Shown here: in pieces, positions 11,566 through 14,892 of the stretch
Position numbering within the stretch: position 1 is the stretch's first letter
Layout of the letters: each line of letters opens with the position of its first letter
Source: a virus
IMG/VR virus record: IMGVR_UViG_3300047359_000210
Span: 1-25,870 of that record
Strand: one strand, 5' to 3'
Length of the DNA: 25,870 nt
Position numbers and translations under genes: made by a program
The notes under the pieces: generated by a model
What the model was told of the DNA's origin: nothing
The model's database searches: none
What the model saw: only the letters and a program-made list of their open reading frames with translations

Positions 11566-11778
11566 TTATGGTTTATTTATAGTGCGAATATCCTTCACCC
11601 ACTCCCGAAACATTCTCCCATCTTCAGTCACGACAATGGCATAGTTGACACCAGTGCGATGAACTGTTCCTTTATCTCCAGTTCTAGCAGACATAACAAT
11701 ATCACCCTCAGAAATCACATCATTCTGACGATGTGCCTGACGGAGTGCTTGTTCTCTAAGTTGCTTAAAGTTTTTCAT
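11566..11778 (-). CDS. Small protein with MKNFK-type N-terminus and SH3/KOW-like fold, 70 residues
   Basis: The first ten residues, MKNFKQLREQ, match those of the 42-residue protein downstream and look like a T4 capsid-targeting peptide. The rest (about 23-66) has the beta pattern of a small SH3- or KOW-like barrel: ISEGDIVMSARTGDKGTVHRTG, then YAIVVTEDGRMFREWVKDI. Such barrels bind nucleic acid or protein. The ATG at 11778 overlaps the stop of the nucleotidylyltransferase gene as ATGA, tying it to that module. A packaged role is inferred, not shown. Confidence 0.7.
   Translation of the reverse strand: MKNFKQLREQALRQAHRQNDVISEGDIVMSARTGDKGTVHRTGVNYAIVVTEDGRMFREWVKDIRTINKP
11574..11581 (-). 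promoter_or_regulatory. T4-type late promoter box
   Basis: A perfect TATAAATA on the minus strand lies about 29 bases before the ATG of the 188-residue Lys/Asp-rich protein and inside the last codons of the 70-residue gene. It matches the box at 10585-10592. Confidence 0.65.
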
Positions 11779-12338
11779 TTAAAATTAGCGGGCAAATTTG
11801 CCTGTATCTCTTGCATAAGAGCACGGCAATCATTATCATTCAGTGCTCTGGGTATACCAGAACGAAAAGTTTTAAAGTCACCAGCAAATGCTGCGCGTCT
11901 CATTTTTGTTCCTGAAATAGCGAAGGTATCGCCATCAGCATCTCTACTTCCAGAAGATTGAATATCAATTTTTCTGAATGAGAAATCCTTTCCGTTATAT
12001 TTATGGAGGAACTGCATGGCGCTCACTCTATCAGAACCCACAAGGAATACTACCTCATTATACCCTGCTAGCATAAGGTCTTGCAAGATAGCGACAGGTT
12101 GTTTGGGTCCAGAATGAATCTTTCCTCTATGTTCTGGAAACATTTTTTCCATATAGAAAAGTTTTCTGTCTGGTGGTAATGGATTGCTACCTTTCTTGTC
12201 TACAGTTTGTGAAATATAAATGCGATAGTCATGAGAACCTGCTGCTCTTTTTACACCAGCAAAGTTTTCTTTATGACCTGTAGTAGGTGGTTGAAACCTA
12301 CCAAAAGTAAAGTAGCAAGTATTACAATTTAACGCCAT
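11775..12338 (-). CDS. Nucleotidylyltransferase (HxGH superfamily)
   Basis: The protein is 187 residues. The nucleotide-binding signature GRFQPPTTGH lies at residues 13-22 and the second signature ISGTKMR at 141-147; between them is a Rossmann-like alternation including VVFLVGSDR. Both motifs are diagnostic of the cytidylyltransferase/NMN-adenylyltransferase superfamily, which joins a nucleotide to a phosphorylated substrate with release of pyrophosphate. The substrate cannot be read from sequence; NMN (NAD synthesis) is one option since phages are known to carry NadM/NadR-like enzymes. It overlaps the KxDG-protein gene by ten bases, and the shared late control suggests a joint role. Confidence 0.85.
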   Translation of the reverse strand: MALNCNTCYFTFGRFQPPTTGHKENFAGVKRAAGSHDYRIYISQTVDKKGSNPLPPDRKLFYMEKMFPEHRGKIHSGPKQPVAILQDLMLAGYNEVVFLVGSDRVSAMQFLHKYNGKDFSFRKIDIQSSGSRDADGDTFAISGTKMRRAAFAGDFKTFRSGIPRALNDNDCRALMQEIQANLPANFK

Positions 12339-13522
12339 TGCTTCTGTAGAGTGAAGTTATTGTATGCAAACTCCATACGGTTGACAAACTTAATCATATC
12401 ACCATCTTTATGAAGGACATATCCTTCAGGAGTTGTGACCTTATATCCTTTCTCTGTCTGGACATAGGTCCGGAACTCTTCCAGGTGGTCAAGCTTATCT
12501 ATAACCATTTGCTTCACTGTCTGTAATTCTTTATACAAAGAAAGCATTGATTTAAACTTGTATACATTATCTACAACATAGTTCTGACTGTTATATACAA
12601 GATTTCTTTTTGCTGTTAGGTTTGCAACTGTCTTAATTTTTGCAAGTTCTTTCTCCATCTTATCGCCATAGAAATTAAGCATGTCATACATTGCTTCATC
12701 TACATTTCCAATACCACGAGCATTCTTAATTTCATTGTTAAAGAACTGTTTTAGATAAGATGCAATATGAAACTTCTTATCTCCAGTAGTACCAGTAAGA
12801 ACTACCAGTTCATCTAAGAAATCTCCACAGATCTGACACATGCGTTCAATCTTAGTAATATAACTATCAAATTTTTTCATCTCAGTTGAAGTGAATCCAA
12901 CTTTATTCATGGGAGTATCATTTTTTATGACTAACGCATCAGTAGATCCATTAACATCAGCTCCAGCAAGTGCTTGCATAGATTGAAAGTCATCACCTTT
13001 GTAGTGTGTATGAAATACTACTCCAATTTTTGACCTACCTGCTGCCTGTCCTATAGGATGATCTACGGGAATGCCATACGTAATAGTATTAGGTCTAAAT
13101 GTATACAGTTTTTCGCCATTAATAGTTTCAGTTTTTACTGTTGAGTCAGTAAACATTAAATCTCCCTGCACTATCCCCTTTATACCTAAGGCAGCAAAAT
13201 ATTTCAAAGAGAATTTTAATTTCTCTGCTAAATCTCCTTCATAATACATGTCAACATCAACATCCGTATAGCAAATCTTTGGTGTTTTGGCAAATACTGA
13301 TTTAGTTCCAACAAAAAACATCCCACTATTAGGATCAGTACCACAAATAATAGACGGAGCACCATCCCATTTGGTTTGCATAAAACCACCACTCTCTTCT
13401 TGACCTAACATCTTGCGAAGTTCTTTAAGGAAAGACACAGCAGCTTTACAACCCTCAACTCCATAGTTAAGCATCTCATCTTCCAGATGTTCTAGATGTT
13501 TTAGTTGTTTAATATTTGCCAT
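12329..13522 (-). CDS. Predicted KxDG covalent nucleotidyltransferase (ligase-like), 397 residues
   Basis: The family is, as far as I recall, a phage domain of unknown function, but ligase/capping-enzyme motifs are visible in order: motif I KWDG at 51-54 (Lys51 would carry AMP or GMP), a VGTKSVF segment in the motif Ia position, GIVQGDLMF at about 116-124 in the motif III position (Asp rather than Glu), motif IV EGYV at 366-369 and motif V MIKFVNR with Lys378. A large helical insertion (about 210-345) separates III from IV. No OB-fold is evident after motif V. It starts one base into the stop of the 383-residue gene (TAATG). Enzyme class is inferred; the substrate is unknown. Confidence 0.72.
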   Translation of the reverse strand: MANIKQLKHLEHLEDEMLNYGVEGCKAAVSFLKELRKMLGQEESGGFMQTKWDGAPSIICGTDPNSGMFFVGTKSVFAKTPKICYTDVDVDMYYEGDLAEKLKFSLKYFAALGIKGIVQGDLMFTDSTVKTETINGEKLYTFRPNTITYGIPVDHPIGQAAGRSKIGVVFHTHYKGDDFQSMQALAGADVNGSTDALVIKNDTPMNKVGFTSTEMKKFDSYITKIERMCQICGDFLDELVVLTGTTGDKKFHIASYLKQFFNNEIKNARGIGNVDEAMYDMLNFYGDKMEKELAKIKTVANLTAKRNLVYNSQNYVVDNVYKFKSMLSLYKELQTVKQMVIDKLDHLEEFRTYVQTEKGYKVTTPEGYVLHKDGDMIKFVNRMEFAYNNFTLQKQWR

Positions 13523-14673
13523 TAGTCGTTAAATACCGTCTCAATACTTTCACCCTTCATCTTATATCCCGACTGTAACTTATCTGGATATACACGATCT
13601 GGATCTGCAGCAGATCCTTTATCAGAAGTGTTTCTAATATTAAATGACATATCTAAGAGAGGTGTTTTTAAATTAATGTTTACTCTCTTTGCACCACCAG
13701 TTTCACCACCATATGATACTGATACATTACTAGCAGTAGATGCTTTATTTAAAAATGCCTCATCAATTTCTAAATGTTTTATCTTACCTTTGTTTAGATG
13801 GACATAATGAAATCCATACCCCAATGATCCCTTAATAAGTTCTTTTAGTAATCCCCTATCATATGTCGGAGAAGAATCAAGTACCTTAAAAGATCTATTG
13901 CCTGATTGATACTCATTAAAAGTTTGACATAACAATTGCTCATTCAATCCAAACGTTTTCATTAAAGCTTTTCCAGCAACAGTTTCAATTTTAGATGCCT
14001 TTACTTGATCAACTGGGAAAACCTCTTTCTTTAATCCAAGATTAGATAAGTTCGTAGTTCCACTCATCTTCAGTGAAAGATAATACTTATGTAATGGTTT
14101 TCCTTTACATTTAGATTCTAATGTTAAGTCAGTAACTGTTGCACCAATATTATATCCCGTTGATGGTGAAGCATTTCCAATTTGCCAATGTCCATTGACA
14201 ATCTTCATAGGTCTAGGTTTATTCTCCGCACCTTCTGCGATTACTCTCACCGCAATACAATCCTCAAGGTGGTAATGTTTTACAAGACCGTAAATAAAAT
14301 CTTTATATTTGTTGTTTGCTAAGTCATCCGGATTTTCAATCCAGTCATTGATACCTGATTCTAATTGCCCTTCAAATAAATTACCTCTATTACCTGTACC
14401 ACGATTACCTCTACTACCATCACCAAAGTCAAAATTGAGAGAAGTTAGTTTTAGTTTTCTTTTTAGTTCTGCTTTAGTAAATTCTGTTTGCAATGCTCTA
14501 GCAATTTTTACTGCTTTTTTATTAGTCGGATTAAAAGCAATAGGGTTTTCCATGCCATATGTATTGACAAGATAATTCCACAACCTCAATGCTTCTGCAG
14601 CTGCAGCATTATCCATATGCTTTACAGCAGAACCTGCATCTGAGAAAGTAGATGGTATAAGATTGTATGCCAT
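13522..14673 (-). CDS. Unknown protein of the late nucleotidyltransferase module, 383 residues
   Basis: I cannot name the family. The N-terminal ~75 residues are helical and basic, and a Gly/Asn/Arg-rich stretch (about 80-98) follows. A mixed alpha/beta core then begins with NLFEGQLESGINDW and contains VTDLTLESKCKG followed by KYYLSLKMSGTTNLSN. An acidic residue on a helix followed by D...ExK and a strand with xLSLK resembles the PD-(D/E)XK nuclease layout, so a nuclease fold is possible but unproven. Its ribosome-binding site GGGAGG, six bases before the ATG, is the 3' arm of the hairpin at 14678-14709, so expression is likely structure-controlled. Confidence 0.72.
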   Translation of the reverse strand: MAYNLIPSTFSDAGSAVKHMDNAAAAEALRLWNYLVNTYGMENPIAFNPTNKKAVKIARALQTEFTKAELKRKLKLTSLNFDFGDGSRGNRGTGNRGNLFEGQLESGINDWIENPDDLANNKYKDFIYGLVKHYHLEDCIAVRVIAEGAENKPRPMKIVNGHWQIGNASPSTGYNIGATVTDLTLESKCKGKPLHKYYLSLKMSGTTNLSNLGLKKEVFPVDQVKASKIETVAGKALMKTFGLNEQLLCQTFNEYQSGNRSFKVLDSSPTYDRGLLKELIKGSLGYGFHYVHLNKGKIKHLEIDEAFLNKASTASNVSVSYGGETGGAKRVNINLKTPLLDMSFNIRNTSDKGSAADPDRVYPDKLQSGYKMKGESIETVFND

Positions 14674-14677
14674 AAAA

Positions 14678-14709
14678 AACCTCCCGTCTAACTATTTAGA
14701 TGGGAGGTT
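14678..14709 (-). terminator. Hairpin: terminator and ribosome-binding-site sequestering element
   Basis: On the minus strand AACCTCCC pairs with GGGAGGTT, then after one A-C mismatch TCTAA pairs with TTAGA around the loop ATAG. A run of T follows and directly abuts the ATG at 14673. It would act as an intrinsic terminator for the upstream genes and would hide the GGGAGG of the 383-residue gene. The stop codon of the 66-residue gene lies in the loop. Confidence 0.8.
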
Positions 14710-14892
14710 CTTAAGATAATCTTTTTCACTTTGATAAGGATGTGTTTGCCCAGACCATATTTTATATCCTTCTTGGAGTTCTGGCAATAACCACTGGTCC
14801 ACCCGAACACATTGATCCCAATTAGCAGGGTGAGAACAACTCACAACCACCACAGTAAAGAATGCTTTCAGGTGAATCCAGAAGGTAAGCAT
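14692..14892 (-). CDS. Small predicted lipoprotein, 66 residues
   Basis: The first 18 residues are a hydrophobic signal-like segment (FWIHLKAFFTVVVVS) ending in VVSC, which fits the lipobox [LVI][ASTVI][GAS]C with Cys19 as the lipidated residue. The mature part is short, polar and rich in Trp, Gln and Tyr. Phage outer spanins and some superinfection-exclusion proteins have this form, but no inner-spanin partner is recognised here. The start ATG lies two bases after the stop of the 71-residue gene. The stop falls in the loop of the terminator hairpin. Confidence 0.65.
   Translation of the reverse strand: MLTFWIHLKAFFTVVVVSCSHPANWDQCVRVDQWLLPELQEGYKIWSGQTHPYQSEKDYLKNLPSK

Follow-up and report, generated by a model that had tools for sequence, protein, structure and literature searches.

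A predicted early/late boundary element in T4-like cyanophages joins a terminator hairpin, a buried Shine-Dalgarno sequence and a late promoter

The window, the whole 25,870-nucleotide stretch analysed here, is a 25.9-kb fragment of a T4-like cyanophage. Its genes follow the order uvsX-g41-mazG-ferredoxin-71 aa-66 aa-(hairpin)-383-397-187-70, an order similar to that in S-RSM4 and other Synechococcus phages. In the window and in relatives, uvsX, g41 and mazG lie upstream of the hairpin on the same strand; that is, early or middle genes precede it. The features are summarized in Table 1. By eye, the DUF6267 protein contains a KWDG motif resembling the one for nucleotidyl transfer in ligases and capping enzymes. 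The 187-aa protein is homologous to a cytidylyltransferase of S-SZBM1. NMNAT-like proteins similar to the 187-aa product were reported in cyanophage virion proteomes, S-SZBM1 among those phages (PMC10665884). Presence in the virion would fit late expression, although the virion NMNAT-like protein of S-SZBM1 may or may not be the same protein as its cytidylyltransferase.

Table 1 Features of the hairpin and the surrounding genes, in window coordinates.
Feature	Position	Strand	Remarks
Upstream 66-aa gene (phrog_703)	14692-14892	-	Stop codon TAG (14694-14692) inside the hairpin loop
5′ (outer) arm AACCTCCC	14709-14702	-	Complementary to the SD; missing from the predicted late transcript; pairs best with its own 3′ arm
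A between outer and inner stem	14701	-	
Inner stem, 5′ side TCTAA	14700-14696	-	
Loop ATAG	14695-14692	-	
Late promoter box TCTAAATA	14700-14693	-	Inner 5′ arm and loop; late box of the clade; conserved 48/48
Inner stem, 3′ side TTAGA	14691-14687	-	
Predicted late +1 (A)	14687	-	13 nt after the first box base, by T4 late-box numbering (PMC2988020)
C between inner stem and 3′ arm	14686	-	
3′ arm GGGAGGTT	14685-14678	-	Contains GGGAGG (14685-14680), the Shine-Dalgarno (SD) sequence of the 383-aa gene, 6 nt before the ATG
T-run, six T	14679-14674	-	Terminator U-tract and SD-to-ATG spacer in one; T-rich stretch also in the listed relatives
Start codon ATG of the 383-codon ORF	14673-14671	-	
Controlled gene, 383 aa (phrog_8438)	13522-14673	-	Opens the late block; putative nuclease of PD-(D/E)XK-like type, weakly indicated
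397-aa gene (DUF6267, T4-GC 71)	12329-13522	-	Probably co-transcribed; without a late box of its own
187-aa cytidylyltransferase-like gene (T4-GC 190)	11775-12338	-	
70-aa gene	11566-11778	-	Last in the predicted late unit
Next late box TATAAATA	11581-11574	-	The predicted late unit ends before it

RNA folding of minus-strand positions 14709-14678 gave -20.5 kcal/mol, compared with -8.7 on average for shuffled sequences (sd 2.2; z -5.4), and 0/200 shuffles were as stable. The minimum-free-energy stem additionally pairs A14712-A14708 with the U's of the T-run. These results agree with an earlier sequence-only reading, which had placed at this position a hairpin whose 3′ arm, GGGAGG, is the SD and whose T-run abuts the ATG. 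The G+C-rich hairpin is directly followed by a U-tract, as in intrinsic terminators, in the window and in relatives, in some of which the U-tract is only TTTTCTT. Terminator activity was called from this fold and U-tract, from which actual termination would be expected. The hairpin was not listed by a generic terminator scan of the window, and Rfam gave only two sub-threshold matches, neither overlapping it.

The same reading had noted TCTAAATA in the inner stem and loop, one base off the T4 late box, and both its position and its late character held up. The published late consensus of cyanophages is NATAAATA, in S-PM2 (PMC2984593). Using the annotated starts of S-RSM4, we found NNTAAATA at most 120 nt upstream of 21/41 virion genes compared with 2/31 early genes, one of the latter being the gene behind the hairpin itself. 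With gene classes assigned by orthology, late and early genes preceded by NNTAAATA within the 100-120 nt upstream numbered 19/33 and 1/30 in S-WAM2 (p 2e-6), 14/26 and 3/28 in Syn1 (p 1e-3), and 17/33 and 3/32 in Sf-CH1b (p 3e-4). TCTAAATA itself stands before g18 (-45), a tail-fibre gene (-45) and SRSM4_040 (-31) in S-RSM4. Because NNTAAATA is enriched before late genes in four relatives, the second base is usually A or C, and TCTAAATA is an ordinary late box in this clade. Late boxes also precede the genes for 188, 67, 208 and 241 aa in the block below the hairpin, and none was found in the window before uvsX, g41, g43, mazG, nrdA or nrdB. The annotation of S-RSM4 includes gp55, gp33 and gp45; the window is a 25.9-kb fragment only. 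Upstream of the 208-aa gene, a G6/C6 hairpin (10616-10585, minus strand) has TATAAATA within a few bases after it, an arrangement of terminator and late box in series. The idea that the box is merely the stop codon of the upstream gene was rejected, as the box is retained next to unrelated upstream genes, and also in cases where the upstream ORF stops at another place.

In T4 numbering, the late box occupies -13 to -6 (PMC2988020). This convention puts +1 at A14687, matching the late start near 14687 proposed earlier, and predicts a 14-nt leader without the 5′ arm. In the window, opening the SD costs 15.1 kcal/mol in the read-through RNA and 0.9 kcal/mol in RNA starting at 14687, which bears out the earlier suggestion that a late mRNA without the 5′ arm would free GGGAGG and read-through RNA would bury it. 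The means over 89 sequences were 15.0 (read-through) and 3.4 kcal/mol (late); SD exposure is relative, as the late leader still pairs partly or weakly with early codons in equilibrium folds. The unpaired probability of the SD was approximately 0 in the read-through RNA. In 90 distinct elements, 0-4 nt separate the predicted +1 from the SD downstream (2 nt in 75/90), so late RNA would exclude the 5′ arm.

Other designs were also found. In three relatives (L448, L454, L463), a CCCC(C)/GGGG(G) terminator follows immediately after the box, and its 5′ arm occupies -5 to -1 or -5 to -2. The sequences TATAAATA-CCCCT/ATAGGGG-T7-ATG and AATAAATA-CCCCC/GTAAGGGGG-T6 place +1 right after the 5′ arm (slash). 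At the start of the MRPQSAKAKGRRLQQ ORF (112 aa, L207), GATAAATA-CCTCC/GTGAAGGAGG-T6-ATT-ATG shows the same promoter, terminator and SD geometry with a different gene. Where homologues of the 383-aa gene lack the hairpin (L134-L138, L141-L145), the box lies at exactly -13 in 7/8 distinct regions, and in P-HM2, also without the hairpin, it lies exactly 13 nt before the ATG (NC_015284 143631-143644). A box at -13 would put the T4-spaced +1 on the A of the ATG, and leaderless late mRNAs are thus possible. All of these arrangements would be consistent with a start at the position given by the T4 rule.

To assess conservation, we used three samples chosen by protein and not by motif: homologues of the 383-aa protein, the 66-aa gene, and the 397-aa gene as an anchor. 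An exact-pattern scan of the collection is biased by construction and was left out of the conservation rates. With the 397-aa anchor, the box was located at -25 to -31 before the start of the variable gene in all 48 distinct loci, compared with 0/48 before the anchor gene (control) and a chance level of 2.2% of random 70-nt windows; these 48 relatives are non-independent, and in the anchor gene all share at least 79% identity with the window. The hairpin with T-run was present in every sequence among those listed for this anchor. Upstream of the 383-aa homologues, the box was found in 29/29 distinct regions and the hairpin was clear in 20/29. Downstream of the 66-aa gene, the box persists without the hairpin or stands after a separate terminator (L104). 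The distant relatives Syn9, P-HM2, S-SZBM1 and P-SSM5 keep the box and lack such a hairpin. Because distant phages keep the box and not the hairpin, the promoter appears to be an old, general feature, and the terminator and SD lock a lineage-specific addition that is, by this comparison, non-essential to late expression.

Covariation of the arms was assessed by swapping 5′ and 3′ halves between elements; a MAFFT alignment set the arms out of register, so pair counting was dropped. At the hairpin junction, own arms gave a mean of -16.4 kcal/mol and swapped arms -14.5 kcal/mol (0/5000 permutations). When copies before g13 (described below) were included, the values were -16.8 and -13.3 kcal/mol (0/5000 permutations). 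Examples of covarying arms are ATCTCCCC/GGGGAGAT (L116) and AGACCTTCCGA/TCGGAGGGTCT (L139). These sequence comparisons indicate that the hairpin structure is under selection. The sequence-only reading had named a stem and box not conserved in relatives as evidence against it; the box was present in all relatives sampled and the stem co-varies.

In each of four complete relatives, two terminator hairpins contain a late box, compared with an expectation of 0.10-0.22 and 0 in 20 shuffled genomes. The second copy precedes the neck-protein gene g13 in S-RSM4, S-WAM2 and Sf-CH1b, and in Syn1 with other arms. This hairpin, TCCCTTCTT(C/A)CTAAATAGGTA(A/T)GAAGGGA-T5-6 with the late box in the loop (S-RSM4 FM207411, reverse-complement position 107068; L276-L355), was found in at least 120 contigs.

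We propose, with a probability of about 0.8, that the hairpin is an early/late boundary element, in which an intrinsic terminator, an SD lock and a T4-type (gp55-class) late promoter would be combined in approximately 36 bp. The terminator would stop transcription coming from the replication genes (uvsX-g41-mazG onward). Polymerase from upstream would make the whole hairpin and either stop in the U-tract or read through with the SD buried. The late start site would lie just 3′ of the 5′ arm, which would then never be made. In general, a terminator with a promoter in its loop cannot stop transcripts born inside it. Polymerase starting at A14687 would make no 5′ arm, so its own hairpin could not terminate it and the leader would expose GGGAGG. 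With terminator and SD lock acting early and the late start bypassing the hairpin, the 383/397/187/70-aa unit would be silenced early and released late. We infer actual termination, the +1, its timing and the need for early silence from the computed fold, box identity and enrichment, conservation, arm covariation, geometry of +1, SD and ATG, and SD opening energies. Early silence is plausibly needed if the 383-aa product is a nuclease.

A simpler explanation, which we consider unlikely, is that a plain terminator lies near a late promoter: the hairpin would only end the upstream operon, the SD would be in the 3′ arm owing to tight gene packing, and translation would be unregulated. A strong stem and T-run are by themselves enough for termination, the 3′ arm of the g13 copy is not the SD, and the hairpin is dispensable in distant relatives. 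However, few large ORFs in these genomes carry a 5-base SD (5-6 of about 95-101); the hairpin nevertheless retains one in its 3′ arm, a few nt ahead of the ATG, in 90 distinct elements and next to many unrelated downstream genes. The mean difference of approximately 12 kcal/mol between buried and exposed SD also argues against a plain terminator.

The genes flanking the element vary. In the 106 distinct junctions compared, 13 types of upstream gene and 17 types of downstream gene occur in 38 combinations, with the hairpin nearly constant. The switch appears strongly conserved while the genes on both sides keep changing. The sequence-only reading had described the hairpin switch, which stands, and had missed this shuffling of flanking genes as well as the retention of the box in relatives without the hairpin. 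The position of the 383-aa gene (window 13522-14673; downstream genes of L054-L232) is hypervariable, with at least seven sequence-unrelated protein families, and sequence-profile comparison detected no homology between family F0 and families F1-F6. Sequence searches of Pfam and the PDB with the 383-aa protein produced no credible match. Its AlphaFold2 model (pLDDT 84, pTM 0.69) had the restriction enzyme MspI as its best PDB match (E 8e-3, probability 0.91), and EcoRV ranked fifth and was not significant (E 0.6). The protein has invariant D182, S200 and K202. Invariant D and SxK columns are also present in the unrelated F1 and F2, and a similar D/SxK pattern was seen in F3-F6, in one or two sequences. 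The F1 model was poor (pLDDT 67.6), and its PDB search was uninformative. This weak evidence, including a predicted structure, suggests that the 383-aa product is likely a nuclease, and the larger families at this position may perhaps be different PD-(D/E)XK nucleases.

T4-like phages are known to have composite terminator/promoter motifs called promoter-early stem-loops (PeSLs; PMC4503421). We tentatively suggest, at somewhat under even odds, that the element is a late counterpart of PeSLs: one fixed hairpin combining promoter, terminator and SD would serve in cyanophages as a plug-in socket for the exchange of different nuclease-like genes, most of them unrelated. Early on, each such gene would be blocked in both transcription and translation; late, it would be expressed from a start inside the terminator, which the transcript would bypass. 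PeSL composite motifs in T4-like phages are reportedly the subject of Arbiol 2010 and Comeau 2014.

Alternatively, the element could be conserved mainly as shared homology for the exchange of flanking genes, as proposed for PeSLs, with regulation secondary. The 38 combinations of 13 upstream and 17 downstream types at the same hairpin favor this idea, which is compatible with a regulatory switch. As the primary explanation it is improbable, since box spacing and pairing are kept despite sequence divergence, the arms co-vary, and the +1 geometry is retained by entirely different hairpins, something not required if homology drove conservation. A PeSL-like early sigma-70 promoter in the hairpin (TAGACG-17-TACAAT, 14690-14662) in place of the late promoter, a weak 9/12 consensus match in phages where true early composites with TTGACG in the terminator loop do exist, was rejected as very improbable, because its -10 would fall inside the coding region and the match is absent in S-CAM4, S-H9-1, Syn1 and S-WAM2, where TCTAAATA persists.

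One early PeSL-type composite was observed in the window after hsp20 (23133-23082, minus strand), consisting of the terminator AAAGGAGAC-TTGACG-GTCTCCTTT with the -35 in the loop; TATAAT follows the T-run. Immediately upstream of the composite is TCTAAATA, and S-RSM4, S-WAM2 and Sf-CH1b have a similar hairpin.

The boundary element would allow abundant marine phages to embed a late gene in an early block at a cost of approximately 36 bp, using a terminator that internally started transcripts cannot obey. Its strict geometry permits base-level prediction of start sites in many published genomes, so the rules of cyanophage late transcription, including possible leaderless late mRNAs, can be tested with existing RNA-seq data. 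At this junction the predicted late starts are minus-strand 44468 of FM207411 (S-RSM4), 143056 of GU071105 (Syn1), 143192 of KU686211 (S-WAM2), 147009 of DQ149023 (Syn9) and 143644 of NC_015284 (P-HM2, on the A of the ATG). The junction also marks rapid gene exchange and points to a diverse set of late-expressed proteins, which may be nucleases.

The promoter resembles T4-type late promoters (TATAAATA; NATAAATA in S-PM2) in its TAAATA core, its location upstream of late genes and its fit to T4 spacing. In contrast, C is common as the second base in these cyanophages (TCTAAATA), which is broader than the published NATAAATA, and some lineages have the box at -13 from the ATG, implying leaderless late mRNA. 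Like PeSLs, the element fuses promoter and terminator at a junction of exchangeable genes (38 combinations). However, its promoter is late and not early, the start lies inside the hairpin, and the stem includes the SD of the next gene; the only early-promoter candidate is a weak, non-conserved sigma-70 match. The hairpin is therefore not a PeSL, because its promoter is late.

The logic of an SD hairpin with a late promoter is already known. In T4 e, soc, 49 and I-TevI, a hairpin sequesters the SD and carries a late promoter in its 5′ strand (PMC3014915), and other homing endonucleases with an SD hairpin and late promoter include I-TevII/III, segB and Aeh1 mobE (PMC2988022). The sequence-only reading had equated the cyanophage hairpin with exactly the logic of e, soc and 49; the precedent is sound, and "exactly" was too strong, as the T4 cases in those reviews are not terminators. 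What appear to be new are the combination with a terminator and a self-bypassing start, the conserved junction between exchanged genes, and the cyanophage setting; we found no earlier description in the searchable literature, the coverage of which is incomplete. The cyanophage hairpin shares with the T4 e/soc/49/I-TevI group a stable read-through RNA hairpin with the SD in its 3′ arm, a late box placed such that late RNA would lack the 5′ arm, and a late gene behind early or middle genes; several members of that group are nucleases, as the 383-aa product may be. It differs in that the hairpin is also an intrinsic terminator by prediction, with its U-tract as the SD-ATG spacer, the predicted +1 precedes the SD by 0-4 nt, the phage family and hosts are different, and one hairpin serves many unrelated genes at a single genomic position.
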